Shown: piece by piece, positions 21,953 to 26,600 of the stretch
How the letters are laid out: each line of letters begins with the position of its first letter
Numbering within the stretch: position 1 is the first letter of the stretch
Assembly (NCBI RefSeq): GCF_000379425.1
Contig: NZ_KB902193.1
Location: forward strand, 1-64,000
Direction: 5' to 3'
Source: Corynebacterium lubricantis DSM 45231
GTDB lineage: Bacteria > Actinomycetota > Actinomycetes > Mycobacteriales > Mycobacteriaceae
Length of the DNA: 64,000 nt
Notes under the pieces: model-generated
What the model saw: only the letters and a program-made list of their open reading frames with translations
Databases searched by the model: none
Told to the model about the DNA's origin: nothing
Position numbers and translations under genes: made by a program

Positions 21953-23035
21953 ATGTCAGGAAAAGCAAGCGTCCTAGTCACCGGCTCTGGAGGCGTGATC
22001 GGGCGCAACGTGGTCGATCATTTCGTTGCCCAGGGCTACAGCGTGCGCGGTATTACTCGCCGTGAACCCGAAGAGCACGAGGGGTGGGATCACATCGCGG
22101 CTGACCTTTTGGATAAGCAGTCCACCCTCGAGGCGATGGGCCAGGCGAAAGACACCACTCATTTAGTATTTGCCGCCTACATTGAAAAACAGAATCCTAC
22201 GGAGTTGATCCAGGTCAACATGGATCTTCTTCACAACACCCTGGACGCTCTCGAGGCTGTTGGTGCGCCGCTCGAGCACGTCACCTTGTACCAAGGGATG
22301 AAGTATTACGGAGCGAACTTAGGCCGATTTAAAACTCCAGCCTTAGAAAACGACGAGCGGCTCATCAGCCCTAACTTCTATTACGAGCAGCAGGAACTCT
22401 TGCAGCGCGTGGCCTCCGAGCGCGGTTACCACTGGACTATTTTCCGCCCGGAAGGTGTGCAGGGCTATGCGCAGGGAACCCCGATGAACCTGTTGATGGC
22501 ACTCGCAGCCTACGTGAGCATCACCAGCGAGCTTGGCGTGCCACTGCGCTTCCCGGGGTCGCGCACTACTTATGACCAGGTCTTTTACCAGGTCACAGAT
22601 GCCGAGCTTCTCGCCGAGGCCACGGAGTGGGCGGGTACCACGAAGGTAGCTTACGACGAGGCCTTTAACCTCACCAATGGTGATGTCTTCCGCTGGAGCC
22701 ACCTTTTCGCAGCTATCGCCGATCACTACGGGATGAAGCTGGAGGAGCCACAAGAGATGAAGCTTGCCGAGCGCATGCCCACCTACCAACCCCTCTGGAA
22801 TCAGATGGTCGGCCACCACGGTTTACGCCACATCACCTGGGAGCAAACCGTGGATTGGAACTTCGCGGACATGATCTGGAACTCCGAATGGGACAACGTC
22901 AGTTCCACGATCAAGGTGCGCAAGGCGGGCTTTCAGGGCTGCCACGACACCATCACACGCACGCTCGAGCTTCTCGACGATCTTATCGAGCGCAAGATCA
23001 TTCCGCCGCTGGGCAAGAGCGCGCCAGTGCTGTAG
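21953..23035 (+). CDS. PRISE-type NAD(P)H enone reductase (progesterone 5-beta-reductase/iridoid synthase-like SDR)
   Basis: A 360-residue atypical/extended short-chain dehydrogenase. The nucleotide-binding motif GSGGVIGRNVVDHF is at the start; the catalytic segments are YQGMKYYG (the Lys of the PRISE group) and NFYYEQQELL, with a Tyr where this family has its catalytic Tyr. These proteins reduce activated C=C bonds and are best known from plants; bacterial members are sporadic. GGAGG precedes the ATG. The gene is monocistronic, and the ABC-F attenuator region follows. The substrate is unknown. Confidence 0.78.
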   Translation: MSGKASVLVTGSGGVIGRNVVDHFVAQGYSVRGITRREPEEHEGWDHIAADLLDKQSTLEAMGQAKDTTHLVFAAYIEKQNPTELIQVNMDLLHNTLDALEAVGAPLEHVTLYQGMKYYGANLGRFKTPALENDERLISPNFYYEQQELLQRVASERGYHWTIFRPEGVQGYAQGTPMNLLMALAAYVSITSELGVPLRFPGSRTTYDQVFYQVTDAELLAEATEWAGTTKVAYDEAFNLTNGDVFRWSHLFAAIADHYGMKLEEPQEMKLAERMPTYQPLWNQMVGHHGLRHITWEQTVDWNFADMIWNSEWDNVSSTIKVRKAGFQGCHDTITRTLELLDDLIERKIIPPLGKSAPVL

Positions 23036-23104
23036 GAGATCTCGAAGCAATGTACTATCCACCACCCTTGCCCCTCCGCTCACCCTCCTGTTATGGTCAG
23101 GAAC

Positions 23105-23149
23105 ATGAGTATGGGACTTTCCTCGAAAAAGCTCTGGTCTCGTCGCTAA
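23105..23149 (+). CDS. Leader peptide of an ABC-F gene
   Basis: A 14-codon frame, MSMGLSSKKLWSRR, starts at an ATG with a second ATG two codons on. AGGA (23099-23102) is 8 nt before the second ATG, while a possible TATGGT box (23092-23097) would place the transcript start at the first ATG. It lies about 170 bp before the ABC-F start and is followed by an intrinsic terminator. This is the arrangement of leader peptides that sense ribosome-targeting antibiotics by stalling. The basic, Leu/Lys/Arg-rich C-terminus suits such a role. Translation is inferred from position and signals. Confidence 0.65.
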   Translation: MSMGLSSKKLWSRR

Positions 23150-23210
23150 CGGCGGTGACTACCTTTTAGGACTAGCACGTCGTTCTGGCTTTTAGCCAAA
23201 CGACGTTTTC
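23148..23210 (+). promoter_or_regulatory. Transcription attenuator upstream of the ABC-F gene
   Basis: The 3' part is a strong intrinsic terminator: ACGTCGTTCTGGCT (23177-23190), a TTT loop, AGCCAAACGACGT (23194-23206, one bulged base) and a T-run to 23209. A competing pairing exists: AACGGCG at 23148-23154, overlapping the leader stop codon, can pair with CGTCGTT (23178-23184), the 5' arm of the terminator. A ribosome finishing the leader would mask AACGGCG and allow termination; a ribosome stalled earlier would leave it free and permit read-through into the ABC-F gene. The structures are seen; the mechanism is inferred. Confidence 0.72.
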
Positions 23211-23317
23211 TGCTGCGCATTTCCGGTATTCACTCGCTGCATCCAAGATCAATGCACACTTCGTGCCTTGGCAGCCGACCATGCGCGCCGGGCACGCTTA
23301 CGCTAAAGCGAGACACC

Positions 23318-24991
23318 ATGCCAGAACTTAAACATCCCCGAACTATTGCCGTTCAAGGCACGCTGATTGCGGGGGAATCGGCCCACATCAGGGCGGAAAA
23401 TCTCACCACCACCAGAGGCGAACGGACCCTTTTTCAAGACCTGAGCCTGACCGTTTCTTCGCGGACCCGCCTCGCCATCGTGGGTGAAAACGGTCGCGGC
23501 AAAACAACCTTATTGCACATGCTTGCCGGTACCGAGCTCCCAGATGCGGGATCGATCACGCGCCATGGTCGTATTGCGTTGGTCGAGCAAGCACTCGAGT
23601 TTTCTCCGGGACACACCGTGGGAGCTTTGATTAACGAGGCTGTCGGCGAGGCGCATGCGGCGCTCACGGACTTAGACGAGGCCACCTACGCACTTGAACA
23701 GGGAGAAGATGGGGCCGATGCACGATACGCCCACGCGCTCGAGAGTGCCGTGGCGCTTGAAGCGTGGGATGCCGACCGCAGGATCGACATCGCACTTGCG
23801 GGCCTGTCGGCCTGTACTGATCGCGCGCGCGAGCTTTCCACCCTGTCGGTAGGGCAGCGCTATCGCGTGCGCCTTGCGGTGTTGCTCGGGTCGAGCACCG
23901 ACATTTTGCTTATCGACGAGCCCACCAACCACCTCGATGCTGCCTCCCTGCAGTTCCTCACCGATTCATTGAAGGCTAAGGATGGGGCTGTGGTGTTGGT
24001 CAGTCACGACCGCAAGCTTTTGAGTGATGTCGCCCAGGATTTCATGGACCTTGATCCGACATCCAATGGGAAACCGAGGACCTATCACGGTGGCTACGGC
24101 GCCTGGCTGGAAGGCAAACACAAGGAGCGGGAGCACTGGGAGCAGGAATTTGAAAAACAAGTTGAGGAGCAACACCGTCTTGAAAATGCTGCCCAAGATG
24201 CCCGCGACCGCCTGAGCACGGGGTGGCGTCCGCCGAAGGGAACCGGCAAGCACACTCGCGCCACCCGCACGGCTGGTGTTGTCCAAGCCTTCAATCGCCG
24301 CATGGAGGAGCTGGAGAAATTCAAGGTCACCGTTCCCGAACCGCCGGGAAAACTGCAGTACCCGTTCCCGCGGGTTAAACAAGGCAGGACCGTACTCGAT
24401 GCAGCCGAGGTCTCGGTTGAGGGGCGGATTCTTACGCCGGTCACTGTGAAAGTGGAAACCGGTGACAAGTTCCTGCTCGTGGGGCCAAATGGTGCGGGAA
24501 AATCGACACTGCTTTCGGTCCTCGGCGGCACACTCGCTCCCACAACCGGATACGTGACCCCGACACCAGGCGCGCGCATTGCCACTTTGGACCAGGAGGT
24601 CCCCGACTGGGAAGCCACAAAGACTGCTCGCGCGTTGTACGAAAACCACATTGAGGAAAGTGGCGTGCTCGCACGGCGGGGGAGTGCTCCCACTTTGAAA
24701 TCTCTCGGATTGCTCGATAGAAAAGCCCTGCACACGCAAGTCGGCAGGCTTTCTCAGGGGCACCAGCGCCGTCTCCAGTTGGCCATGTGCCTTGCCGAGC
24801 AACCCGATCTGTTGATCCTCGATGAACCCACCAACCACCTTTCCATTTCGCTTGTCGACGAGCTCACCTCTGCCCTGAGGCAGACGGCCTCGGCGGTGAT
24901 CGTCGCAACGCACGACCGGCGGATGGTGAAGGATCTCAAGGATTGGAAGGTGATCGAGCTGGGCCTTTACTCACCACCTCACGGTGTGTAG
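23318..24991 (+). CDS. ABC-F ATPase, probable antibiotic-resistance (ribosome protection) type
   Basis: A 557-residue protein with two fused ABC domains and no membrane helices. Domain 1 has Walker A VGENGRGKTTLL, signature LSVGQRYRVRLA and Walker [13 protein letters not shown]; domain 2 has VGPNGAGKSTLL, LSQGHQRRLQLA and LLILDEPTNHLS. The interdomain linker (about residues 240-350) is long and charged and contains GTGKHTRATRTAG and VVQAFNRRMEEL, like the actinobacterial TlrC/CarA/OleB resistance proteins. Such proteins bind the E site and displace macrolides, lincosamides or related drugs. The start at 23318 (MPELKHPR) fits the family better than the upstream in-frame codon. Its leader peptide and attenuator support drug-dependent expression. 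Confidence 0.85.
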   Translation: MPELKHPRTIAVQGTLIAGESAHIRAENLTTTRGERTLFQDLSLTVSSRTRLAIVGENGRGKTTLLHMLAGTELPDAGSITRHGRIALVEQALEFSPGHTVGALINEAVGEAHAALTDLDEATYALEQGEDGADARYAHALESAVALEAWDADRRIDIALAGLSACTDRARELSTLSVGQRYRVRLAVLLGSSTDILLIDEPTNHLDAASLQFLTDSLKAKDGAVVLVSHDRKLLSDVAQDFMDLDPTSNGKPRTYHGGYGAWLEGKHKEREHWEQEFEKQVEEQHRLENAAQDARDRLSTGWRPPKGTGKHTRATRTAGVVQAFNRRMEELEKFKVTVPEPPGKLQYPFPRVKQGRTVLDAAEVSVEGRILTPVTVKVETGDKFLLVGPNGAGKSTLLSVLGGTLAPTTGYVTPTPGARIATLDQEVPDWEATKTARALYENHIEESGVLARRGSAPTLKSLGLLDRKALHTQVGRLSQGHQRRLQLAMCLAEQPDLLILDEPTNHLSISLVDELTSALRQTASAVIVATHDRRMVKDLKDWKVIELGLYSPPHGV

Positions 24992-25030: not shown

Positions 25031-25057
25031 GTGTTCATTCGTCTCGCATTCGTTTAA
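25031..25057 (+). promoter_or_regulatory. Possible short leader ORF before the second ABC-F gene
   Basis: GTG-started 8-codon frame (MFIRLAFV) with GAAGGAAAGG 5-8 nt upstream, ending 31 nt before the second ABC-F start. TCGTCT in it (25039-25044) can pair with AGACGA (25077-25082) next to the ABC-F initiation region, so translation of the leader could change access to the start codon. It is short and could be chance. Confidence 0.4.
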
Positions 25058-25088: not shown

Positions 25089-26600
25089 ATGCCTATAACT
25101 TTTCAAAACCTTTCTTTGACCTGGCCTAACGGCACCCCCTGTTTCACCGACCTCAGCGGGGCATTTACCAGGCCCATGACCGGCCTGATCGGTGATAATG
25201 GCACCGGGAAATCTTCGTTGCTCAAGGTGCTCGTAGGCCAACTTGAGCCCACCTCCGGCACGATGCAGACTCCCGACAATATTGCCTACCTGCCGCAGGA
25301 TTTGGGTCTGGACACCGCAAGCACCATTGCCGACATCTTCGGCATCACCCCAATCCTCGCTGCCATCGCCAAAGTGGAGGCTGGTGAATACGCGCCCGAG
25401 CTACTCGAGATCATCGGCGAGAACTGGGACGTGGCCGAAGCCGTCACAGTCAGGCTCGCCGAGGTCGGCCTCGAGCTTAAGCTGGATCGCACCGTGGGCA
25501 CGCTCTCCGGCGGGGAAGCAGTATCGGTCGCGCTTACGGCGGCCTTTTTTACTAACCCGGACTTCCTTGTGCTCGACGAGCCCACCAACAACCTCGATTC
25601 CCAGGCCAAAGCGACTCTGATCAAGCTGGTCACGCATTCGCAGGTACCCGTGCTCGTGGTCAGCCACGACCGCGACCTTCTGGCGCACACGACCCAAATC
25701 GCAGAACTCTATCACGGTCAGCTCCGGTTCTTCGACGGTAATTACGCGACCTACCGTGAGGCGATCGACCAGGAGCAAGCCGCCGCGGTGCAGGGTGTGC
25801 GCGAGGCGAAAGCGGAGGAGCGCAAGCAAGTCCGCGAGCGCGAGGCAATGCAGACCCGCCTGGCCAGAGATGCGCGCCGCGGCAGGAAGTTCGCGGCGGA
25901 GAAACGAAAACCGCCCATCGCCATGGGGATGGATAAGAATAAGTCGGAGAGGTCGTCGTCGAAACGCGAAATGGCGGCTGCTGACTCCGTGGCGCAGGCC
26001 CGCGACAACTTCGATGCGGCGCAGCGCAAAGTACGTGATAGCGACCAGGTGTTCATCGATCTTCCTGCCACTCGTTTGGCAAATGGCACGCGCGCGCTGG
26101 CCGCGGAAGAGCTGACCATCGTCGGCCCGGAGCGCGTGCGCATCGCCGGGCCGAACGGGAGTGGAAAGACAACGCTGCTGAACGCGATTGACCGCGGTGA
26201 GGTGGAGTATGTCATCGCGGCGCGCGGTTACCTGCGTCAACGTATCGAGCTGGATCCAACCAAGTCCGTGTTGGCGCTGGTTCTCGACGCGAATCCCGAG
26301 ACGGATCCGCAGTATGTGCGTAATCAGCTGGCGCAGCTGCTCTTCCGCAACGACGAAGTGCGCGCGCAGGTGGGCACGTTGTCGGGTGGCGAGCGGTTCC
26401 GCATCGAGTTCGCAAGGGTGCTTTTGGGTACGCCGGCGCCGCAGCTTTTGCTTATCGACGAGCCCACCAACAACCTAGACATCTCCACCGTTGATTGGCT
26501 GGTCTCGGCGCTTGAGGGCTACCAGGGGGCGCTGATTGTGGTGAGCCACGACGATGATTTTTGCGACCGCATTGGAATTGAGCGCGTGATTGAGCTGTAA
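25089..26600 (+). CDS. ABC-F ATPase, second copy
   Basis: A 503-residue duplicated ABC protein without membrane helices. Domain 1: [39 protein letters not shown]. Domain 2: [41 protein letters not shown]. The linker (about residues 220-320) is very basic ([18 protein letters not shown], then [12 protein letters not shown]) and shorter than in the first copy. The type is widespread in corynebacteria and is likely a translation factor or resistance protein. It follows the first ABC-F gene by 97 bp on the same strand and has a weak Shine-Dalgarno and a possible short leader ORF. Confidence 0.82.

Follow-up and report, generated by a model that had tools for sequence, protein, structure and literature searches.

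A likely macrolide-sensing attenuator on a leaderless mRNA upstream of an ABC-F gene of Corynebacterium lubricantis, shared with erm(X)-type genes

We consider it likely that an ABC-F gene of Corynebacterium lubricantis DSM 45231 is controlled by a macrolide-sensing, ribosome-operated transcription attenuator on a leaderless mRNA, and that this type of control is shared with erm(X)-type genes. The window (the whole stretch of 64,000 nucleotides that was analyzed) contains, upstream of the ABC-F gene, a short leader peptide gene and two competing RNA pairings, one of which is a predicted intrinsic terminator. In related loci, a three-codon motif of the leader holds a fixed place relative to the stop codon and the mutually exclusive pairings are conserved. 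Further, the same element stands before erm genes of the genus.

Anatomy of the leader region and the ABC-F protein

All features of the locus lie on the forward strand. A putative −10 box, TATGGT (23092–23097), is located 7 nt 5′ of the ATG of a 14-codon leader peptide gene, MSMGLSSKKLWSRR (23105–23149; ATG at 23105, TAA at 23147–23149), and the predicted transcript start is the leader AUG itself. Codons Lys9-Leu10-Trp11 (23129–23137), six codons before the stop, form a predicted +X(W) macrolide arrest site. The end of the leader (strand 0, 23136–23146, defined by folding) pairs with strand 1 (23148–23161), the antiterminator strand, which starts within the stop codon. Strand 2 (23177–23190) is the 5′ arm of the terminator, and strand 3 (23194–23209) comprises its 3′ arm (to 23206) and UUUU (23206–23209). 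The predicted terminator hairpin (23177–23206; −16.3 kcal/mol) consists of 13 base pairs interrupted by one bulge, and the UUUU follows it. The first-pass annotation had described a competing pairing of AACGGCG (23148–23154) with CGTCGTT (23178–23184); in a longer drawing, strand 1 (23148–23161) pairs with 23173–23184 through 12 pairs with two bulges (−11.5 kcal/mol). The gene of the ABC-F protein (557 aa) follows as an uninterrupted ORF at 23318–24991, and its alignment with orthologues (e.g., L003) reaches query residue 1. Thus, the leader, the terminator, the competing segments and the ABC-F gene are all present in the order and at the places that the first-pass annotation had given. This arrangement fits the anatomy of ARE-ABCF attenuators, in which a short uORF lies between the promoter and the gene, and a predicted intrinsic terminator lies between the uORF and the gene.

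The fold of the leader region was better than that of 196 of 200 shuffled sequences (z = −2.47). A simple scanner found no TTGACA/TATAAT-type promoter, and a consensus −35 sequence was absent before the leader. The terminator at 23177–23206 was missing from the output of a simple scanner because of the bulge in its stem, and a hairpin over the leader stop was reported instead. There were no matches to Rfam 15 in the window at the gathering score, and a search at E ≤ 5 over 22950–23400 returned narK only (18.9 versus 43.2 bits).

Against the TlrC/CarA/OleB/SrmB family (NF000171), the ABC-F protein scored 307.1 bits, which is below the curated score of 800. The TlrC/OleB type that had first been assigned to the protein was therefore not upheld, yet this was its best-scoring named resistance subfamily. 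The best-scoring family was the ribosomal protection-like ABC-F proteins (NF000355), in which the protein reached 353.4 bits, below the curated score of 380. The product probably protects ribosomes from macrolides. A second ABC-F gene (25089–26600) is preceded by a GTG…TAA reading frame (25031–25057) that encodes MFIRLAFV. When 12 loci of this second gene (among L174–L184 and the window) were read by eye, five carried MFIRLAFV or ML[KT][FI]RVSA and seven carried MKIFS or MKIRS.

In the mechanism that we propose, transcription would begin at the leader AUG and ribosomes would load on the bare 5′ end of the RNA. Without drug, a ribosome at the stop codon would cover strand 1, strand 2 would pair with strand 3, and transcription would terminate. 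When a macrolide occupies the exit tunnel, translation would stall at Lys9-Leu10-Trp11 with Leu in the P site. The front edge of the stalled ribosome would extend no further than roughly the stop codon's first base, leaving strand 1 free to capture strand 2 before strand 3 is made, and RNA polymerase would read through into the ABC-F gene. The usual toeprint distance is about 16 nt; with codon −5 in its P site, a ribosome of this reach would shield the message roughly as far as the initial base of the stop codon, and strand 1 starts one base further on.

Leader classes, arrest motif and transcription start among relatives

Among 242 genomes of the same genus, 42 had relatives of the ABC-F protein at E ≤ 1e-100; a sample of 397 genomes from the order gave 56, and the genome of the window is included in both counts. 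Further, 77 plasmid records matched at E ≤ 1e-60, of which eight were taken, and the upstream regions were compared in a set of 104 related ABC-F loci. Leader classes were called by script: 50 loci were type I (the class of the window), 50 were type II and four were uncalled. Three of the type I loci were duplicates, leaving 47 distinct ones. Type II leaders are also leaderless-looking, with 6–10 codons and hydrophobic ends (MHLYFL, MQQLFFL, MPYVLYL and others; examples are L060, L068, L100, L103, L123 and L136). Of the four loci without a scripted call, L093 carries a leader resembling type I at a greater distance from the gene, with the motif out of register; L094, the leader of which lies outside the region read, was labelled together with L093; and L078 and L108 remain uncalled. 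In a quick tree of 100 proteins (of the 104 rows, two short and two identical ones were left out), the type II rows and one uncalled row formed one supported group, the sister clade. The leader-type labels changed three times on this tree, compared with a mean of 34.9 changes for shuffled labels.

A contig search with the ABC-F protein returned 20 loci at 25–34% identity, the upstream DNA of which was not used in the comparison. The more distant ABC-F loci L011 and L012 have minute upstream ORFs (ATG-GAG-AGC-TGA and ATG-CTG-AGC-TGA) followed by GC-rich sequence. On the plasmids L132, L136, L137 and L138 (Micrococcus, Gordonia, Glutamicibacter and Janibacter), an annotated MFS transporter gene lies directly 3′ of the ABC-F gene.

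Counted back from the stop, the motif [KR]x[KRW] occupied codons −6 to −4 in 46 of the 47 distinct type I loci, a count favoured by the loose form of the motif with which these loci were collected. Across seven other offsets, it was present in 7 of 47 loci at −4 and in none of 46–47 at −5 and at −7 to −11. In an earlier set of 25 loci, chosen by eye and by a stop followed by CGGC, 24 had the motif. The residues at codons −6 to −4 of the 47 loci were KPW (11), KLR (9), RIW (6), RPW (6), RLR (5), KVR (5), KLW (4) and PTR (1), so that KLR, RLR or KVR was present in 19 and an X-W form in 27. The codons of the motif varied while the residues were kept (e.g., AAG-CTG-CGT, AAG-CTA-CGT and AAG-CTC-CGC), as expected of a translated peptide. 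From the fixed spacing of the motif, we infer a ruler that would run from the stall site to the stop codon.

According to the accessible part of an inverse toeprinting study, erythromycin pause motifs are +X(+), XP(X), +X(W) and XP(W) (PMC6238534), and the conserved leader motifs match three of these classes, +X(+), +X(W) and XP(W). The K-L-W of the window belongs to +X(W) and lies outside the strict Arg/Lys-X-Arg/Lys motif. The +X+ arrest motif is also that of ErmDL (MTHSMRLRFPTLNQ) and MefAL (MTASMRLR), as described in the available portions of their accounts (PMC8298421; PMC10314930), and MefAL has ASMRLR in common with some type I leaders (e.g., L005 and L079). In contrast, ErmDL and MefAL belong to another phylum, and K-L-W of the window is a predicted arrest site. 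The middle residue of the motif occupies the P site in the arrest of ErmDL, and the change of its A-site Arg to Trp relieved stalling with telithromycin in the same partial account (PMC8298421). By analogy, KLW of the window may not respond to ketolides.

The variety of residues at this place, where KLR, RLR, KVR, KLW, RIW, RPW and KPW all occur and no single residue is kept, bears also on whether the element could be an amino-acid attenuator like those of trp or ilv, responding to shortage of Arg or Trp. This is suggested by the end of the window leader, W-S-R-R, and by the precedent of ilvBNC in the genus, as far as the consulted sources describe it. Since the controlled genes are, further, ABC-F and erm genes, we give this explanation hardly any credence, and it was set aside because of the residue variety at the motif.

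The macrolide-sensing attenuator that we favour would begin at its own start codon. Because a TANNNT box is located 6–8 nt before the leader start in 45 of the 50 type I loci (at 7 nt in 37), the leader AUG is probably the very 5′ end of the message, which would make the mRNA leaderless, a point on which the first-pass annotation had not remarked. The combination of box, spacer, ORF and motif was present in 41 of the 47 distinct loci, and none of 4700 shuffled sequences had it; when the motif was disregarded, the box and a short ORF were found in 42 of 47 loci and in 183 of 4700 shuffles. In the called type II leaders and in 18 erm leaders that were read, the boxes were at 6 or 7 nt, but a box at about this spacing was itself a criterion for calling both. 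The type II calls required a loose hydrophobic ending in addition to the box. The box counts of both groups are thus not independent.

RNA pairings in relatives and in the window

In the strand scheme, strand 1 pairs with strand 2, strand 2 pairs also with strand 3 (the terminator), and strand 0 can pair with strand 1. A further strand 4 pairs with strand 3 in most relatives (columns 128–156 of alignment A1) and is not recognisable in the window. Alignment A1 held 43 of the 47 distinct loci; L048, L062 and L064 were left out for their long spacers and L135 as a near copy of L131. Among 42 distinct sequences, the paired cells amounted to 97.9% for the 1:2 core, 93.7% for 2:3, 82.5% for 0:1 and 94.8% for 3:4, compared with shuffled means of 97.2, 93.0, 82.3 and 93.8%, respectively; much of the paired-cell fraction is plain sequence conservation. 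The covariation scores of these helices were reached by 1, 10, 19 and 1 of 500 shuffles in the same order, and at least one slid version scored higher for 2:3, 0:1 and 3:4. By the shuffle and slid-helix scores, covariation therefore backs 1:2 best and 0:1 hardly. When the lowest-energy hairpin was chosen, the longer fold that contains 3:4 was often taken, and helix 2:3 was therefore counted on the alignment.

When strand 1 was compared with shuffled downstream RNA locus by locus, the result was weak: no shuffle paired equally well in 5 of 47 loci, and at most 10 of 200 did so in 26 of 47. In a partner-swap test made after this single-locus test, 28 distinct strands bound their true partners with a mean of −21.7 kcal/mol versus −19.6 kcal/mol for swapped partners (sd 0.37; 0 of 5000 permutations). 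Folding with the ribosome masked was carried out for 45 of the 47 elements (all except L125 and L134). Strand 1 was predicted to pair downstream when the ribosome was stalled, and not when it was terminating, in 42 of them, and the three elements that did not switch were those of the window, L005 and L064. Without a ribosome, strand 1 was mostly paired downstream anyway in 13 of the 45 elements, which in this model counts against a simple default-off state.

The window copy is among the weakest and is a diverged member of the attenuator family. At least as good binding as with its own partner was obtained for strand 1 of the window with 25 of 27 foreign partners, and 23 of 200 shuffled downstream regions paired as well as its 1:2 helix. 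The competing pairing of the first-pass annotation is thus present, whereas in the window alone it does not exceed chance; a pairing of 7 bp is by itself no evidence, and the claim is carried by the comparison with relatives. In equilibrium folding of the window, the terminator was present in all four states that were tried. When the RNA was ended at 23193, before the 3′ arm, the 1:2 helix formed with a stalled ribosome and not with a terminating one. Since the terminator persists at equilibrium and the switch appears only in the nascent RNA, the mechanism of the window copy is kinetic, or translational, or lost. The attenuator logic proposed earlier for this gene is in the main supported by the comparison, and the switch in the window is predicted only for nascent RNA.

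We regard it as very unlikely that the family is real and the window copy has decayed, with a terminator that, if it works, is not relieved, or with constant low expression of the gene. The weak 1:2 helix, the lack of equilibrium switching and the unrecognisable strand 4 would agree with decay, but the leader frame, the box, the place of the motif and the terminator are all kept, and the ABC-F gene is intact. Further, the base changes of the window are partly compensated in helices 1:2 and 2:3 (e.g., G-C to A-U and C-G to U-A).

A less remote, still rather unlikely alternative is that the same sensor acts mainly on translation, the freed strand 1 rearranging the 3′ leader RNA and opening the ribosome-binding site of the ABC-F gene. 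Translational attenuation has been suggested for erm(X) in the accessible part of a published account (PMC3350403), the 3:4 helix is formed in most relatives (94.8% of cells), and many of them have no clear U-tract. When the window RNA was folded with a stalled ribosome, strand 1 found its partner 3′ of the terminator, and slightly more of the start region was unpaired (0.59 versus 0.45). Over the 45 elements, however, the mean gain in openness of the start region is only 0.07 (above 0.1 in 14 and below −0.1 in three), and the window has UUUU after the hairpin, with the gene start about 110 nt further on. The number of T among the 10 bases after strand 3 averaged 4.8 before erm (n = 18), 3.6 before ABC-F genes of the same genus (n = 21) and 3.2 in other taxa (n = 26), a difference that is suggestive only, as the comparison had no control.

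Occurrence before erm genes and relation to known systems

To the transcription attenuator proposed here, the erm genes of the genus bring the main indication of its signal. A covariance model, R1, was built from 43 ABC-F leader elements including that of the window and run on the 242 genomes of the same genus. It gave 114 matches at E ≤ 0.01: 24 upstream of ABC-F genes, 62 upstream of erm genes and 28 with neither gene behind them; for the best 85 (E ≤ 1.2e-4), these numbers were 24, 58 and 3. The 24 ABC-F matches account for every type I ABC-F locus of the genus, and three of these loci had not been used for training. There were 66 erm matches in 65 genomes, which we take to be erm(X), and the R1 element was present upstream of 62 of the 66, in 61 cases 20–33 nt before the matched start. 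Two such Erm proteins scored 295.7 and 289.3 versus 212 bits with NF000499. In the 18 erm leaders that were read, the calling of which required a box, codon −6 began RLR in 10 and RPL in five, and RLR or RIR was one codon nearer the stop in three. At L152–L167, L169 and L170, the leader and hairpins that precede the ABC-F gene are found before erm genes as well. Since one covariance model matches both, the same RNA element appears to serve the type I ABC-F leaders and the erm leaders of the genus.

Two of the 28 matches before neither gene were read. At L168 (G024:C73), the leader MYTGTASLKLRTLR lies before an ORF that the contig end truncates; this ORF was read as an MFS pump, and its sole family match is weak. 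At L151 (G249:C4), the element is followed by an open frame of 345 codons that has no NCBIfam match. On the Prescottella equi plasmids L131 and L135, an ABC-F gene with the type I leader MYASTGFMKPWSLR is two genes from erm(46); a pattern scan before erm(46) of pRErm46 found no such leader, and the ABC-F gene two genes away has one.

Macrolides are proposed as the signal mainly because of this shared use with erm genes. The broad drug range first suggested for the leader was thus narrowed: the arrest motif and the sharing with erm indicate macrolides, and nothing indicated pleuromutilins or chloramphenicol.

Several known systems resemble the element in part. Published work on erm(X) has suggested a leader peptide gene and induction by erythromycin through translational attenuation (PMC3350403), and R1, trained on ABC-F leaders, recognises the architecture of the ABC-F element upstream of 62 of the 66 erm genes in the genus. 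The gene controlled is a different one, the mode proposed is translational, and the accessible part of that account mentions neither a leaderless start nor a motif at a fixed position. In the msrD attenuator, MsrDL (MYLIFM) stalls at its stop codon with erythromycin (PMC10314930, available portion). Like the window locus, msrD combines an ABC-F gene, a macrolide-stalled leader (predicted here), an intrinsic terminator and transcription attenuation, whereas MsrDL resembles the type II leaders of the sister clade (MHLYFL and kin) and not the leader of the window. A uORF, a terminator and an anti-terminator also precede the ARE-ABCF genes vmlR, cplR, tiaA and are5sc, with the different uORFs MIN, MRI, MLV and MVGDDDISG, in the accessible parts of two papers (PMC10201436; PMC12421871; vmlR through these). 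According to the same parts, lincosamides, streptogramin A and pleuromutilins stall the ribosome at the start codon of the tiaA and are5sc uORFs, whereas erythromycin does not.

A sister leader sequence can be set beside that of the window: MYSGIASMKLRSAR. The RNA parts of the ErmDL and MefAL systems are not known to resemble those of the window element. In a literature search, with most subscription journals outside its coverage, we found no description of the element upstream of any ABC-F gene in this group, and no paper that mentions "MHLYFL".

We lean, with modest assurance, towards a wider reading in which one macrolide-sensor cassette would serve unrelated resistance genes (ABC-F, erm and perhaps an MFS pump) across Actinomycetes. 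This cassette would be a leaderless mini-gene with an arrest motif so positioned that the stalled ribosome ends exactly at the stop codon of the mini-gene itself, and the sister ABC-F clade would have a second leaderless sensor of the MsrDL kind (MHLYFL and kin).

If this is true, inducible macrolide resistance in the genus and its relatives would depend on a common RNA sensor, recognisable in sequence data, and the response of ABC-F and erm genes to the same drugs would be explained. The element would also be a natural case of drug sensing on a leaderless mRNA. Further, the family would provide dozens of natural variants of the erythromycin arrest site (KLR, RLR, KVR, KLW, RIW, RPW and KPW) at a fixed distance from the switch.
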